Notes under the pieces: generated by a model | What the model was told of the DNA's origin: nothing | Seen by the model: the letters and a program-made list of their open reading frames with translations, nothing else | Databases searched by the model: none | In this document: piece after piece, positions 31,367 to 41,690 of the stretch | Position numbering within the stretch: the stretch's first letter is position 1 | Layout of the letters: each line of letters starts with the position of its first letter | Assembly: GCF_003815915.1 (NCBI RefSeq) | Contig: NZ_CP033929.1 | Coordinates: forward strand, 2,418,001-2,482,000 | Source: Chryseobacterium indoltheticum | GTDB taxonomy: Bacteria; Bacteroidota; Bacteroidia; Flavobacteriales; Weeksellaceae | Length of the DNA stretch: 64,000 nucleotides | Direction of reading: 5' to 3' | Translations under genes and position numbers: made by a program

Positions 31367-32206
31367 TCAAACGGGATTATTTCTTTTTGTAAAATTTAAA
31401 TCGTAGCTAAAAGCACGGGGCTTTATCAGCGTACCTGTACGAAGATCTACTGCTGATCCGTCGACAAGGATCTGGCCTTTAAGGTTTTTAACATAGATTG
31501 ATGCCCCACGGATGAAAGGCTTCATGCTTTTTGCCGTCACTGCTCTTGCATTAATAATCATTGCAGATCCTTTGCCTTTGCACACAGCTTGATAACCTTT
31601 TTCAATAATCACCGACATTCCCCCACGAATTGACAGCCCCAAATAGTTCCTTTGAGTGAGTATAGATTTTATCAGTTTCTTATAATCGGTTTGCTCTTCT
31701 GTTGGAGTATAAATAACACATTTTTTAACGAAACCTAATCCTTTTTCTGTGCATTTTTTACTGATCATCTCATCAGATAATGCCATAGCTGCGGTATGAA
31801 TTCCGACCAGTGTAAATTTTTCGTCTGTCATGTATTTATTATGTAAAAGCTCACCAATTGAGTTTTTACTTAAAAAGGTGTGTATTTCAGATTGATTCCC
31901 CAGAAGAATAATGATATCTGCTTCAGCTATGCGTGAGTAATAGCCGTTGTTATCGTTGCATTCTTTATGAATACTGATGATGCCATAATTTGTATGCCCT
32001 TTTTCGCTAATTGCATCACAACACACTTTAAGAGATTCATCAGATGATGGTAAAGAGGTAATGATTTCGATATGCGCTTCTTTTTTAAGGGAAATGCATG
32101 AAAATAAGCTCCGCCCATGATTTTGTTTTACAACCAATTCACCGTTGTCGTTATATTGAGTGTCAATAAGTTGACCTAATAATATAAGTTTACCTTTTGG
32201 ATACAT
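31367..32206 (-). CDS. Cyanophycinase-like protein lacking the catalytic triad (pseudoenzyme)
   Basis: From ATG 32206 (MYPKGKLILLG) the protein is 279 residues and aligns end to end with the cyanophycinase encoded at 33458-34321. The longer frame from 32248 overlaps the upstream lipoprotein gene and is rejected. The peptidase S51 fold seems kept, but the active site is gone. The nucleophile motif GTSAGA reads GIHTAA (Ser to His137), the catalytic His in DTHFVH reads YTPTEE, and the Glu in GLGEDT reads SIRGGM. The Arg residues that bind cyanophycin are also lost. It cannot be a peptidase of the known kind and may be a binding protein. It follows a small lipoprotein gene by 16 bases. Confidence 0.75.
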   Translation of the reverse strand: MYPKGKLILLGQLIDTQYNDNGELVVKQNHGRSLFSCISLKKEAHIEIITSLPSSDESLKVCCDAISEKGHTNYGIISIHKECNDNNGYYSRIAEADIIILLGNQSEIHTFLSKNSIGELLHNKYMTDEKFTLVGIHTAAMALSDEMISKKCTEKGLGFVKKCVIYTPTEEQTDYKKLIKSILTQRNYLGLSIRGGMSVIIEKGYQAVCKGKGSAMIINARAVTAKSMKPFIRGASIYVKNLKGQILVDGSAVDLRTGTLIKPRAFSYDLNFTKRNNPV

Positions 32207-32222
32207 AGTTTCTGAAATTAGG

Positions 32223-32423
32223 TTACTCGTTATCTGTTTTAAGATCAACCTTTTCTGCTCCCATTTGTATAGTATCTGAGGTTTCCGTTAAGGTTTTAAT
32301 GGTATCAGACTGTCTGTTGTTTACAGTCTGTCGTTTATTTTCCTGATTGTAATATTGCGTTTCAGATTTGGTACAGGCAACTGCAGTAGACAGTGCCGTA
32401 AATAACAGCGCTATGTTTTTCAT
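32223..32423 (-). CDS. Small lipoprotein of unknown function
   Basis: The 66-residue product has a signal peptide and a lipobox ending TAVAC (Cys17), followed by a short polar tail rich in Thr, Gln and Asn. After cleavage only about 50 residues remain. It is the first gene of a likely two-gene unit with the cyanophycinase-like pseudoenzyme. No family is recognised. Confidence 0.65.
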   Translation of the reverse strand: MKNIALLFTALSTAVACTKSETQYYNQENKRQTVNNRQSDTIKTLTETSDTIQMGAEKVDLKTDNE

Positions 32424-33457: not shown

Positions 33458-34321
33458 ATGATTTCAAAAGGAAAATTATTACTAATCGGTGGCAGTGAAG
33501 ACAGAAGTGATACAAATAATGAGATGGAAAAGAAAAATCGTGATTTTATACCTCATGAAATTTTAAAATTACTGATACAAGACAAAAATGATCGCATTGA
33601 AGTCGTAACAACGGCAAGCTCAGAGCCGGAAAGCATGCGAAAGACATACACCGAGACTTTCGATGAGCTTGGTTTTACCAATTACGATTTCCTCCATTTG
33701 TGTGATCAGCAATTGCATTCCGATCATTATTTTAAACGTGTAGAAGCGGCTAAAACTATATTTTTTACAGGAGGAGACCAAAACAAAATTTGTGAAGAAC
33801 TAAAAAATTCATCAATTAACGAACTGATACTTCATAAATATAGAAATGAAGAAGGTTTTCTTGTTGCAGGAACTAGCGCCGGAGCTATGTGCATGCCCGA
33901 CATCATAATCAGCGATGCTGTAAATGGAGAAGCTATTCTCGATGAGGATATTAAAATACTGCCAGGCCTGGGGCTCATTGATCATTGTATCGTAGATACC
34001 CACTTTGTGCACAGAGGCAGATTCAGCAGATTAGCTCATGCTTCAATTCTGCATCCTGATCATTGGGGAATTGGCTTGGGAGAAGATACAGCACTTATTA
34101 TCGAAGAAGGACATCGTGCAAAATGTAAAGGCTCAGGGATGGTGTTGGTGATATCCGCTAAAAACATTAAGCAGACTAATGTTTCTACAGCAGAAAAGGG
34201 CGAGCCTGTATATGCTGAAAATCTTCAGGTACATATTCTTACTGACGGTTGTTCGATAGACTTCGATAGCGGTATAATAACCACCGATGAGGCAGAGCGT
34301 TCAAAAAATACAACAGAGTAG
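33458..34321 (+). CDS. Cyanophycinase (peptidase S51)
   Basis: The 287-residue cytoplasmic protein is a full peptidase S51. The active site is intact: Ser140 in AGTSAGAM, His182 in VDTHFVHRGR and Glu209 in GLGEDTAL. The spacing of 42 and 27 residues equals that of the Synechocystis CphB triad (Ser132, His174, Glu201). The Arg residues of HRGRFSRL (186, 188, 191), which hold the beta-Asp-Arg substrate, are also kept. It should cut cyanophycin to beta-Asp-Arg. No cyanophycin synthetase or isoaspartyl dipeptidase is in the window, so it may use imported polymer or a partner gene elsewhere. A catalytically dead relative lies 1.25 kb upstream on the other strand. Confidence 0.9.
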   Translation: MISKGKLLLIGGSEDRSDTNNEMEKKNRDFIPHEILKLLIQDKNDRIEVVTTASSEPESMRKTYTETFDELGFTNYDFLHLCDQQLHSDHYFKRVEAAKTIFFTGGDQNKICEELKNSSINELILHKYRNEEGFLVAGTSAGAMCMPDIIISDAVNGEAILDEDIKILPGLGLIDHCIVDTHFVHRGRFSRLAHASILHPDHWGIGLGEDTALIIEEGHRAKCKGSGMVLVISAKNIKQTNVSTAEKGEPVYAENLQVHILTDGCSIDFDSGIITTDEAERSKNTTE

Positions 34322-34549: not shown

Positions 34550-34637
<88 letters not shown>

Positions 34638-34758: not shown

Positions 34759-36468
34759 TCAAACAGAAACTTCTTCAATGATTTCTTCATAGCTTACGGG
34801 ATCTGCTGTTTTCTGATAACGTTCCCATTCAGCTTCGAGGTTTTTATCGGTTTTCATTTCTTCCTCAAGCTTCAGCGTTTCTCTATATTGCTTTGCTTCT
34901 GCCAAAAGTGTCCATTTACAATTGATTCCGATAATTTCAAGATGATTTTTCAGATCACTTAAATTAAGTCTGAAAAATTCTTTTCTAGGATTTATTTTAT
35001 TAAGTTGATTTTTAAGAAACTGCTTATGTAACTGCCTTTCTAAAGCGGGAGCATCCTCTGAATAAATCATTGCATGTACATCAAATTCAAAAGGAACACT
35101 TGCATCTCCCAATTCACGAACGCGGTCTAAAGGCTCTAAACGTCTCGTCATCCCAATTTTATAAACATGCTCTCCAAAAGAACCGATGTTTGAAATGACA
35201 TATACATTTCCGGTTTTTGTCTGTTGAGCCATTGAGATAGCTCTTTGATTTTTTTCTTCTGCCTGCTCTAGTTTTCCTTGTAGCTCCTCAAGTTTTTGCT
35301 GAAACACAGCTTTTTGTGCTTCATTGGCTATGGAAACTTGTGCTTCGGCTTTTTCAATTAAACGTTTTAAAGTTTGTTCCTCTTTTTCGGCATCTTTTAT
35401 TGCTTTTTCAAACTCCTTTCGGGCTTTCTCTTCTTCACGGATCTGTTCACGAATTTGCCTTTGCTCTTCGAGTTCCGTGGCCCGTAATTCCTGTGCTACA
35501 ACTGCCCATTTAAGTTCTTCAAGCCTCGCCTGGTGATAAACATCTGAAATTCTTGCATTCCTGAAAGCTTTTCCGTTAAAATTAACCAACTGAAAAGCAT
35601 CTTCGATTTTCTGTTTCAAAATTCCATAATTATCTTTTCTCACGGTTGACAAAATAGAGTCTACCTTTCCGTTGTAAGCATCAATCACAAAATCTACAGC
35701 CGTTTTTTTTCTTTCATTGTCCATATATTCACAGATTCCGGCTTGTCGGTTGACGATCATCATTTTATTATTCTGACGAAGCTTTTTGAGATTTTCACCT
35801 GCGTCTTTATGGCTGAAATCTTCAGCTAGCTGATCAAGAAGAGTGTAGCTCGGTACAAGATATTCGTTTCCGTAACCTTTAATAACGTTTTTCATTGCCT
35901 GGATTCTGCTTGCAATTTCATCAGCTTCTCTAAGGCTTCTGTATGCATCGCCGCCGATAGTTTCTGCTTTGTTTTCAGCTTGATTGATGATTCTTGTAGA
36001 TTCTCGTACTGCATTTTCATACAAAAGTTCAATTTCTCTTTGCTTCTTTTCGCTCAGCTCTTTAATGTTTCTTCGTGATTCTTTTGCGCTTTCCTGAGCT
36101 TCAGATAATTCCAGATTACCTCTTTCTCTCAGTTTTTCATAATCTTTCTGAGCTTTTTTAAGCAGATATTCACATTCAATTTTCACATCGATAATGTTTT
36201 GATATTTGCTTAGCTCAGCAATTTTATCTTTTAATTCCCGATTGGTAATCTGAATATAAGACAAGTCTTTTTTTGCAGACTGAAGGTTTGTTTTTAAAGA
36301 ATTATTTTCATTCTGGTATTTTAATATTTCAGATTGAAACTGATTAATAATTTTTGTTAAATCATTAATTTTAAGGTCTTTGTTTTTAATTTCGGTCTTT
36401 AGTTTATTAGATCTTGTGTAGAAATACACAGCCAATCCAACCAAAAATAAAATGAGAAAAATTTCCAT
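34759..36468 (-). CDS. SNIPE-like membrane nuclease: DUF4041 plus GIY-YIG (Mug113/T5orf172) domain
   Basis: The 569-residue protein has one N-terminal membrane helix (about 2-19), then a long coiled coil (about 22-165). DUF4041 follows (about 170-340, with GYGNEYLVPSYTLLDQLAEDF and FVIDAYNGKVDSIL stretches), then a second charged coiled coil (335-415) and a GIY-YIG nuclease domain (about 420-505). Nuclease residues are visible: VYVIS (422), VYKIG (435-439), Arg451, Glu477 and Asn493. This is the architecture of SNIPE, a membrane-anchored nuclease that cuts phage DNA as it is injected (established for the E. coli type). It is monocistronic and ends about 120 bases from tRNA-Ser. A defence role here is inferred. 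Confidence 0.87.
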   Translation of the reverse strand: MEIFLILFLVGLAVYFYTRSNKLKTEIKNKDLKINDLTKIINQFQSEILKYQNENNSLKTNLQSAKKDLSYIQITNRELKDKIAELSKYQNIIDVKIECEYLLKKAQKDYEKLRERGNLELSEAQESAKESRRNIKELSEKKQREIELLYENAVRESTRIINQAENKAETIGGDAYRSLREADEIASRIQAMKNVIKGYGNEYLVPSYTLLDQLAEDFSHKDAGENLKKLRQNNKMMIVNRQAGICEYMDNERKKTAVDFVIDAYNGKVDSILSTVRKDNYGILKQKIEDAFQLVNFNGKAFRNARISDVYHQARLEELKWAVVAQELRATELEEQRQIREQIREEEKARKEFEKAIKDAEKEEQTLKRLIEKAEAQVSIANEAQKAVFQQKLEELQGKLEQAEEKNQRAISMAQQTKTGNVYVISNIGSFGEHVYKIGMTRRLEPLDRVRELGDASVPFEFDVHAMIYSEDAPALERQLHKQFLKNQLNKINPRKEFFRLNLSDLKNHLEIIGINCKWTLLAEAKQYRETLKLEEEMKTDKNLEAEWERYQKTADPVSYEEIIEEVSV

Positions 36469-38373: not shown

Positions 38374-39728
38374 TTACCACTTATTATCGATCATGTAAAT
38401 CATTTGCGTCATAATTGTAGCTCCCAAAAGCAATTCGCGGCGATTTACTTTTTCAAAAGTATCTTCTTCGGTATGATGAATATCAAAATATCGCTGAGAA
38501 TCCGGAACGAGTTCTGCAGTAGGAATTCCCATATCTTTTAAAGGATAAATATCTGTTCCGGAATATCTTCCTTCAAAATCATAAGCTCCGTAAGGAAGAA
38601 ATAGGGGAGACCAGCTTGTAATCTGATTGATTTTATCAGCGTCCATTTCCAAAGCAATTCCCCTCGGAGAGAAACCTCCCGCATCAGATTCTAAGGCAAA
38701 AAGATGTTTTTCGTTATTCTCTTTTACTGTTTTCCCGTATTGTTGACCGCCTTTCACACCGTTTTCTTCATTTGCAAAACAAACCACTCGTATCGTATGA
38801 TTATTTTTTAGGCCTAAATTTTTAAATGTTCTCAAAACTTCAATGCTCTGTACAATGCCGGCTCCGTCGTCATGAGCACCTTCACCAACATCCCACGAAT
38901 CTAAATGTCCGCCCACAACAATGACGCTTTATCTTTATTTCCGGTAATCTCACCAATCACCGAGTGAGAGAGCTTTTCGGCTTTCATTCCGCAATTTGAA
39001 TTGAGTTTAGCGGTGATTTTTTGGGATTTTAAAAGAGCTTCCAATTCATCTGCAGTGGTATTTCCAATGGCAACAGCCGGAATTTTATCTGAATCACCAT
39101 ATCTCATCGCTCCGGTATGCGGAACATCATCAAAAGCAGAAGAAAGCGATCTTACAATGGCAAATTTCCCTCCTTTTTTTGCCGTCAAAGCCGCCGCAGT
39201 AGAACGGTAAATTGCCGCATCGCTGTAGGCTTTGAAAGTTTGAACATACGACTGACTGAAGGGATAATTAAAGAAAACAATCTTGTCTTTCACCTGTTCC
39301 GGACTCAGTTTGTCATATTCCGCCAATGATTTCACCATGATGATCTCTCCTGAAACATCTTTTCCTTTTGTTCCTTCAGAATTCCCAAGAGAAAGCATTT
39401 TTAGAGATTTCCATTTCCCGTTTTGAGCTTTTATTTTTAAAGATTCTTTTCCTCTTTCCCACACGGGAATCATTACTTCCTGCAGCCAGACTTTGTCGGC
39501 TCCGGCTTCTTTAAGTTTTTGTTCTGTCCATTTTACCGATTTTTCATACGCTTCAGAACCGCTCAATCGATGCCCTATATTTTTGGTTAAATCTCTAAGT
39601 TCATTGTAAGATTTTCCTTTATTTAAAATTTCTGTTGAAATTCTGCTGAATTGTATAGAATCTTCTTTGGTCTGCCCGAATAAGTTTAAGCTTAAAAAGA
39701 CAACCGCAGCTGATAGAATATTTTTCAT
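38374..39728 (-). pseudogene. M28-family zinc peptidase, broken by a 1-base frameshift
   Basis: Two frames, 38901-39728 (signal peptide plus protease-associated region) and 38374-38916 (catalytic half), together match the intact paralogue at 40290-41690. The join lies near 38921-38932: reading GATAAAGCGTC with one more base restores KDK-VIVVGGHLDSWD. The first frame instead stops at TAG (38903-38901). The catalytic half has all M28 residues: His and Asp in GGHLDSWD, DD in GAHDDGAG, the Glu pair in ANEENG, Asp in LESDAGG and His in DIHHTEED. It would be an active secreted aminopeptidase or carboxypeptidase-Q-like enzyme if the frame were whole. The frameshift may be real or a sequencing error. 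Confidence 0.85.
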
Positions 39729-40289: not shown

Positions 40290-41690
40290 CTACCAATTCT
40301 TATCAATCATAAAAACAAACTGCGTCATCGCAACAGCTCCAAGCAATAATTCTCTTTTGTTTACTTTATCAAAAGTATCTTTTTCAGAGTGATGATAATC
40401 GAAATAGCGTTGCGTATCGACCACCATTTCAACCAATGGAATATCCAGTTTTTTTAATGGTGCAATATCCTGAATTGCATAAGTCTGGTTAAAATCATAA
40501 ATTCCGTAAGGTAGAAAGTAGTTTTTCCATTCGAAAATAAGCCTTCTTCTTTGTGGCGACATATCTAAAGAAAATCCTCTTGGAGAATATCCTCCGGAAT
40601 CACTTCCTAAAGCCAAAATATGTTTTTCTTCTTTCTTTTTTACACTCATTGCATAGGTTTCACGACCCATTCCGCCATTTTCACTGTTGGCGTAAAGCAC
40701 AACTCTTATCGTATGATTGTTGTCGTAACCTAAAGCTTTAAACGTTCTCAAAACTTCCATACACTGTACCACTCCGGTTCCGTCATCATGAGCGCCTTCA
40801 GCAAAATCCCAAGAATCGAGCTGTGCTCCGAGAACAATTACTTTAGAATCTTTTTTACCGGGAATTTCACCGATAATATTGTGATTAATTGTTTCACCTT
40901 TTGACTCGGCAGACATATTAATTTTAGCTTTAACAGAAGTCTTTTTAAGAAGGCTTTCAAGTTCATCTGCCGAACGAGCGCCAATCGTCATTGCAGGTAT
41001 TCTTGCCTTATCATCTGGTTCGTAATAAACCTGTTTCGCATGCGGAATATCATCAGAAGCTGTTGTTAATGATCTTATAATTAAAGCTTTTGCTCCTTTC
41101 TGACCAATAACGGATGCCGAAATAAGTTTAGATTTTGCCGCAATCATGTAAGAATCTACTGTGCTGATTATCGTAGGGTCGATAGGGTAGTTGACAAAAA
41201 TAATTTTATCTTTTGCATCTACAATTCTCAGATTCACCAATTCCTGAACGTTATTCACCAAAAGAATATCAGCAGTAAGATCTTTTCCTTTGGTACCTTC
41301 AGAATTTCCGAAAGAAAGCATTTTTATGTTTTTCCAATCACCGCTTGAAGTTTTAATCTGTAAAGATTCTTTTCCTCTGATCCAAATGGGAACTCTTACT
41401 TCCTGTTTCCAGATATTTTCTGCACCAGCTTCTTTTAAGTTTTTTTCAGCCCATTCTGTAGCTTTTGTATAGCCCGGCGTCGCACTGAATCTTGATCCAA
41501 TTCCTTTTGTTAATTCACCAAGATTGTCGTAAGCGGTTCCGTGAACGAAAATTTCGTCAGAGATTTTCTTAAATTCTTCGTGGTAATTGAATTTAGGGAT
41601 TGGCTTTGCCTTTTTTGAAGGAGTTTTTTTCTGAGAAAATAAAAATCCACTCAAAAAGAGTGGAAATATGATAAGTAAGATTTTTTTCAT
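40290..41690 (-). CDS. M28-family peptidase homologue with a substituted active site
   Basis: The 466-residue protein has a signal peptide (about 1-20), a protease-associated insert (about 130-260) and an M28 domain (about 265-466). Two key positions are changed. The first zinc ligand, His in GGHxD, is Gln290 (GAQLDSWD), and the general-base Glu of the EE pair is Ser336 (ANSENG). The other ligands (HDDG, GSDSGG, YHHSEKD) remain. By comparison with the well-studied Aeromonas aminopeptidase, it should bind zinc poorly and be inactive or act differently. Its neighbour has an intact site but a broken frame. Confidence 0.85.
   Translation of the reverse strand: MKKILLIIFPLFLSGFLFSQKKTPSKKAKPIPKFNYHEEFKKISDEIFVHGTAYDNLGELTKGIGSRFSATPGYTKATEWAEKNLKEAGAENIWKQEVRVPIWIRGKESLQIKTSSGDWKNIKMLSFGNSEGTKGKDLTADILLVNNVQELVNLRIVDAKDKIIFVNYPIDPTIISTVDSYMIAAKSKLISASVIGQKGAKALIIRSLTTASDDIPHAKQVYYEPDDKARIPAMTIGARSADELESLLKKTSVKAKINMSAESKGETINHNIIGEIPGKKDSKVIVLGAQLDSWDFAEGAHDDGTGVVQCMEVLRTFKALGYDNNHTIRVVLYANSENGGMGRETYAMSVKKKEEKHILALGSDSGGYSPRGFSLDMSPQRRRLIFEWKNYFLPYGIYDFNQTYAIQDIAPLKKLDIPLVEMVVDTQRYFDYHHSEKDTFDKVNKRELLLGAVAMTQFVFMIDKNW

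Follow-up and report, generated by a model that had tools for sequence, protein, structure and literature searches.

The window, the 64,000-nucleotide stretch of the Chryseobacterium indoltheticum genome analysed here, carries on its reverse strand (34759..36468) an open reading frame with an ATG start that encodes 569 amino acids. A tRNA-Ser(TGA) gene (34550-34637, reverse strand) lies 121 bases downstream of its stop codon. The coordinates, strand and length of the gene, together with a distance of about 120 bases to a tRNA-Ser, had been given correctly in a preliminary description, which proposed a SNIPE-like membrane nuclease with a likely function in phage defence. Two PADLOC models for PD-Lambda-1 (SNIPE) match the protein with E-values of 3.2e-107 and 1.5e-103; scored with the same PD-Lambda-1 model, it reaches 357 bits against 658 for E. 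coli SNIPE.

The single membrane helix proposed for the N terminus is likewise predicted from hydropathy, the strongest hydrophobic stretch covering residues 1-17 (Kyte-Doolittle 2.25) and being followed by basic residues, as expected of a helix whose C-terminal side is cytoplasmic. Combining the hydropathy maximum with a helix in the structural model, we place it at approximately residues 3-18 (36415..36462; this and the following protein features are all on the reverse strand), the exact ends being set by eye. A hydrophobic segment at the N terminus is shared by all 42 intact Chryseobacterium proteins of this membrane-helix type, the 15-residue mean being 2.35 or higher in each. A coiled-coil stalk of approximately residues 19-197 (35878..36414), delimited by alignment and model, precedes DUF4041 at residues 260-315 (35524..35691). 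The HMM search for this domain, on whose outcome the preliminary description had made its assignment depend, returned Pfam PF13250 with E 1.3e-12 and 47.8 bits against a cut-off of 27. There follow a linker helix (residues 316-416; 35221..35523), visible in alignment and model, and a GIY-YIG nuclease domain (residues 421-511; 34936..35208) recognised by its conserved residues and by MUG113 (PF13455, residues 436-511, E 4.6e-18) and T5orf172 (PF10544, residues 421-511, E 7.5e-14); all Pfam matches to the protein exceed the curated cut-offs. The nuclease motifs VYVIS (422-426) and VYKIG (435-439) are in place, as are Glu477 (codon 35038..35040), which aligns to the catalytic E414 of E. coli SNIPE, and Asn493 (34990..34992). 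Arg451, which had been counted as part of the nuclease core, is present, yet the conserved arginine is Arg449 (35122..35124): in a family alignment of 402 sequences (360 database hits plus the 42 genus proteins) Arg449 occurs in 401, with one gap, and Glu477 and Asn493 each occur in 400, with two gaps each; the four commonest residues at position 451 are R (254), K (90), D (50) and N (3).

Structure prediction, which had been suggested as a further check, yielded an AlphaFold2 model with a mean pLDDT of 86.6 and a pTM of 0.58, in which helices 2-87, 90-172 and 174-197 precede the DUF4041 region and helices 309-380 and 383-416 follow it. The DUF4041 region itself is compact and helical, and the nuclease domain lies C-terminal to the long helices. 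Helices flank DUF4041 on both sides, in line with the long coiled coils previously described there, but the coil after DUF4041 is not peculiar to this protein, since 101 residues of it can be aligned to E. coli SNIPE without a gap. Judged on the PADLOC models, Pfam domains, domain order, predicted membrane helix, nuclease residues and alignment to E. coli SNIPE, the window gene is a member of the SNIPE family, as had been proposed.

The repeat motifs noted behind the tRNA-Ser are present, and we read them differently. The segment 34356..34549 (reverse strand), made up of a hairpin and AATAGGTCA/TGACCTATT repeats, matches the end of an integrative element: over these 194 bases, which directly follow the tRNA, identity to the sequence ahead of a tyrosine integrase gene in two related species (G037 and G064) is 88 and 90%. 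By sequence, the repeats have the look of a scar left by an island end. Among the ORFs following this end Pfam detected no integrase, and a second copy (at least 13 bases) of the tRNA or of the 60 bases after it was not found in the window. The island side of the tRNA also carries two cyanophycinase-like genes, at 31367-32248 (reverse strand) and 33458-34321 (forward strand); against TIGR02069 one scores 176 bits, above the cut-off, and the other 38 bits, far below it. An M28-type peptidase gene at 38374-39728 (reverse strand) is split into ORFs of 275 and 180 amino acids in different frames; several related species have a single M28-type ORF of 451-452 amino acids at the matching place, and an intact paralogue is located at 40290-41690 of the window.

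Comparison with E. coli SNIPE and the wider family

As a reference we used E. coli SNIPE from phage PhiR26_1, annotated as PD-lambda-1, because nine of the nine checked residues named in the available text of Saxton et al. 2026 (PMC13190303) are found in it at the right positions. The same text gives PD-lambda-1 as the plasmid name for SNIPE, and the 2022 screen, in the part available (Vassallo et al. 2022, PMC9519451), describes a membrane anchor, DUF4041 and a C-terminal DNA-cleaving domain. The two proteins are alike in having an N-terminal membrane helix, DUF4041, a gap-free linker of 101 residues and a GIY-YIG domain. Identity is highest in the nuclease (65 of 99 positions), lower in the linker helix (46 of 101, zero gaps) and falls to only 11 of 55 in DUF4041; the N-terminal 105 residues share little sequence and show no clear match, the window protein being about 62 residues longer before DUF4041. 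SNIPE mutants that defend better against one phage group carry changes at E223 and W257 (PMC13190303, section 8); the window protein has Lys285 and Lys320 at the aligned positions. According to the text available from the same paper, 34% of SNIPE homologues are without a membrane helix, and across bacteria the N-terminal region is poorly conserved and DUF4041 moderately diversified (section 9). The genomic settings also differ, in that the E. coli SNIPE copies examined sit among lambdoid phage genes whereas the window gene is a lone chromosomal gene.

Between DUF4041 and the nuclease, 343 of 401 family members have a linker of the same length as the window protein; it is four residues longer in 50, four shorter in seven and eleven shorter in one. 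Long-stalk relatives that align with the stalk included are found in Acinetobacter (L047, a short draft contig; 45% identity over residues 9-535), in the genome of Klebsiella phage KP12 (46.5% over 3-540) and in that of Marinitoga camini virus 2 (44.7% over 3-539). Relatives were found in 184 records of plasmids and 37 of phages. SNIPE relatives to which at least 80% of the query aligns are carried by phages of Klebsiella, Marinitoga and Synechococcus (OM835953, KP836356, PP438427 and OM868080), the annotation reading chromosome segregation ATPase for two of them and hypothetical for the other two; such phage-borne relatives are possibly unrecognised superinfection-exclusion genes. A system of the same name, PD-Lambda-1 of S. 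thermophilus, blocks phages from a chromosomal locus in a Gram-positive host, according to the available part of its description (PMC12322248). A paper on a SNIPE of Bacteroidota was not found in searches of the open-licence literature, where none of the matches listed combined PD-Lambda-1 with Chryseobacterium or Flavobacter, and the main text of the SNIPE paper (PMC13190303), as far as available, contains no word starting with 'bacteroid'.

The stalk is where Chryseobacterium proteins differ in length, its natural variants including protein types of 553, 560, 567 and 574 amino acids. Among the 42 intact genus proteins, internal length changes are confined to residues 38-77 and comprise 7, 14, 21 or 49 residues, with a single-residue change near the C terminus as the exception. 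Adding 120 database proteins contributed one more change of 7, one more of 14 and one of net 14 (17 residues out and three in), with one exception of 18 residues at residue 123. In the multiple alignment, the stalk indels of the Chryseobacterium type are thus 7, 7, 7, 14, 14, 14, 21 and 49, plus the one of 18, and between residues 124 and 558 no length change occurs among the 162 proteins. Such steps in whole heptads fit a coiled coil that keeps its register. A looser pairwise count for the Chryseobacterium type gave multiples of seven in 21 of 31 size-and-position classes. We rejected a heptad rule for the whole family, since multiples of seven make up 41 of 267 in the E. coli type and 39 of 318 in the Acinetobacter type, as expected by chance (1 in 7), pairwise counts for these two types being noisy because their stalks are less alike. 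Stalk length steps among the Acinetobacter-type database hits are 11, 7, 4 and others.

Sites, inheritance and selection within Chryseobacterium

A homologue was detected in 48 of 173 Chryseobacterium genomes (E 1e-10). The gene is hence far from universal in the genus, with 125 genomes giving no match, and the prospect raised in the preliminary description, of this gene at one and the same place in all relatives, is not borne out. Of the 48 homologues, 45 are of the membrane-helix type. The remaining three are DUF4041 nucleases of 452 amino acids (L106/G042, L115/G070 and L129/G161) that start with MGxFDFLKKKEL, have no membrane helix (top 17-residue hydropathy 0.8-1.2), retain a DUF4041 match and align to the query from residues 149, 193 and 152, respectively, to 538 at 39, 41 and 40% identity. 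In 296 genomes drawn from the family, DUF4041 was found in 44, 40 of them in Chryseobacterium and four outside; DUF4041 reading frames of 460-466 amino acids occur in three genomes of other genera. Three of the 45 copies are broken by an in-frame stop (L032 in G010, L036 in G064 and L126 in G148), which reflects either decay or sequencing error; these and the three 452-residue proteins were excluded from the 42-protein alignments and from dN/dS analysis.

By neighbouring genes, 35 of the 45 copies fall into three sites. Site A, between an aspartyl protease gene and the tRNA-Ser, is occupied in ten genomes including that of the window; site B, between two small genes, in 15, three of which have one extra gene beside SNIPE; and site C, with somewhat variable flanks, in ten. 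The other ten copies form the looser groups H (3), F (3, with flanks common only in pairs), D (2) and E (2). In 15 of 45 copies, namely those of site A and groups H and E, SNIPE is followed by a tRNA-Ser (13 by ARAGORN, two visible in part where Ns or a contig end cut the sequence short); the other 30 are not beside one. In three genomes with an empty site B the flanking genes are only 75, 147 and 201 bp apart, so that gain or loss seems to involve SNIPE by itself.

To follow inheritance, we compared SNIPE with three markers (a DUF1015 protein, SerA and SerC) in 38 of the 42 genomes, G046, G048, G104 and G111 being left out for lack of marker sequence. The ratio of SNIPE to marker divergence is 2.11 within site A, 2.44 within B and 3.12 within C, and 2.25 between A and B, 2.18 between A and C and up to 3.44 in other comparisons; within the three sites the two divergences correlate with 0.87, 0.85 and 0.80. 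This parallel rise fits descent from a single old gene. Lower ratios (A-H 1.35, A-F 1.57, within F 1.24) point to transfer for groups H and F, and one pair at site C (G069 and G121) has a ratio of 0.35. In the SNIPE tree B and C each hold together and H and F nest inside A. In the marker tree (72 of 173 genomes, three markers, FastTree, midpoint rooted) neither B nor C is separate from other genomes, with G097, G150 and some genomes that have no SNIPE interspersed. Two genomes, G030 and G075, fall inside the site A group of this tree yet are without the gene, which is a further departure from a fixed occupancy of the site; their M28 peptidase gene adjoins the tRNA-Ser with neither SNIPE nor the protease between, and we read them as loss of SNIPE. 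Eight SNIPE-less genomes on the neighbouring branch keep the order DUF1015-M28-protease, and in the 20 kb read there neither SNIPE nor a tRNA-Ser is present at that locus.

The gene is under purifying selection, with the highest dN/dS in its first part. For sites A, B and C, NG86 dN/dS over the whole gene is 0.056, 0.044 and 0.046, rising to 0.141, 0.096 and 0.111 in the first 105 residues and amounting to 0.027, 0.029 and 0.008 in DUF4041 and 0.032, 0.046 and 0.039 in the nuclease; DUF4041, linker and nuclease span 0.008-0.046 where computable, and the values at B and C are rough because dS is near saturation. The 38 close pairs agree (0.050 overall, 0.124 and 0.025). In protein sequence, SNIPE diverges at two to three times the rate of the markers and is in that sense less conserved than these housekeeping proteins. 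Across bacteria both the N-terminal region and DUF4041 vary, according to the available text of PMC13190303, whereas within Chryseobacterium only the N-terminal part is fast. The window gene seems to be an ordinary SNIPE member that has long been resident in one genus.

Proposed role and alternatives

On the basis of its domain make-up, family membership, conserved catalytic residues, sites and selection, all read directly from the genomes, we consider it quite likely that the window gene encodes a SNIPE-type defence nuclease. Membrane location, topology, DNA cutting at injection, tape-measure binding and phage defence are carried over from E. coli SNIPE, whose defence against phage was established by test, as stated in the available text of PMC13190303. 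By this analogy, the long coiled-coil stalk would carry DUF4041, which may bind DNA as well as a siphovirus's tape measure protein during injection; the linker helix, nearly fixed in length, would position the GIY-YIG domain to cut phage DNA during entry, and anchoring would keep SNIPE away from the chromosome. In Chryseobacterium it would do so as a solitary, long-resident chromosomal gene under purifying selection, at times lost, moved or transferred. Phage defence is thus the most likely role by homology. It is not to be assumed for each member, since of two S. thermophilus PD-Lambda-1 homologues that are 98.5% identical one is inactive, as reported in the available part of PMC12322248.

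A gene resident for so long in the genus might also have a different role. The protein could be a membrane-bound nuclease with a host role, or with a wider role against incoming DNA (plasmids, natural transformation), rather than one directed at phage injection. Its mostly site-stable presence in the genus, the low dN/dS that includes DUF4041, the lack of a defence partner gene beside SNIPE in the window, on the side of the tRNA where SNIPE lies, and the name 'cell division protein FtsL' given to two among the 120 relatives listed would all suit such a function. We nevertheless regard it as improbable, because SNIPE is absent from 125 of 173 genus genomes, three of 45 copies carry an in-frame stop, groups H and F look transferred, and relatives reside in the 184 plasmid and 37 phage records.

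That SNIPE is instead cargo of a mobile island inserted at the tRNA-Ser was suggested by the flank itself. In related species this tRNA is a hotspot for island insertion on its 3' side. Four of these species have tyrosine-integrase genes there (two recognised by Pfam, one of these lacking a catalytic-domain match, and two through membership of the same sequence cluster). Genes for a resolvase, an ISL3 transposase, a GmrSD pair and a type I methylase are also found; a TPR protein at this position in G068 has an NB-ARC match below the cut-off and no PADLOC match. The window retains an island end after its tRNA-Ser, and groups H and E also have SNIPE beside a tRNA-Ser with differing upstream genes. 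The GmrSD pair (L036 11523-14964, G064) and the methylase gene, HsdM (L040 10201-11769, G097), are located 3' of the tRNA-Ser behind SNIPE; they are restriction genes arriving beside a resident SNIPE. We rejected the island reading as very unlikely: in all 13 cases measured, SNIPE is found on the upstream side of the tRNA, 105-147 bases from its 5' end, and hence outside the insertion point. SNIPE is also present in G093, G038 and G165, where a plain terminator-like hairpin (judged by eye) follows the tRNA, and it is not beside a tRNA-Ser in 30 of 45 copies, with just 75-201 bp between the flanking genes at the empty site B of three genomes. A decaying remnant without function, as the in-frame stops in G010, G064 and G148 might suggest, has still less in its favour, given an intact window copy that keeps the conserved residues and a mean dN/dS of 0.05 over 38 close pairs.

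Returning to a SNIPE-type defence nuclease, we tentatively suggest, with more doubt than confidence, that SNIPE is here a resident membrane sentinel, not a passing defence gene, that an early ancestor probably already had and that occupies a few fixed sites. Its head, which would face DNA and phage, is kept by strong purifying selection, and change gathers in the stalk, reset nearly always by full heptads, which would move the head towards or away from the membrane with the coiled-coil register kept. What is specific here, long residence in one genus and a stalk that changes heptad-wise, is a modest addition to the published system. Distinction of self from non-self by place of entry, not by sequence, has been shown for SNIPE in E. 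coli, and a Bacteroidota member differing in stalk and DUF4041 would show whether this principle holds with another envelope and other phages. The N-terminal region has been suggested as an adapter (PMC13190303, section 9, as available), and the 42 intact copies, the empty sites and the natural stalk lengths within the genus make that suggestion directly testable.
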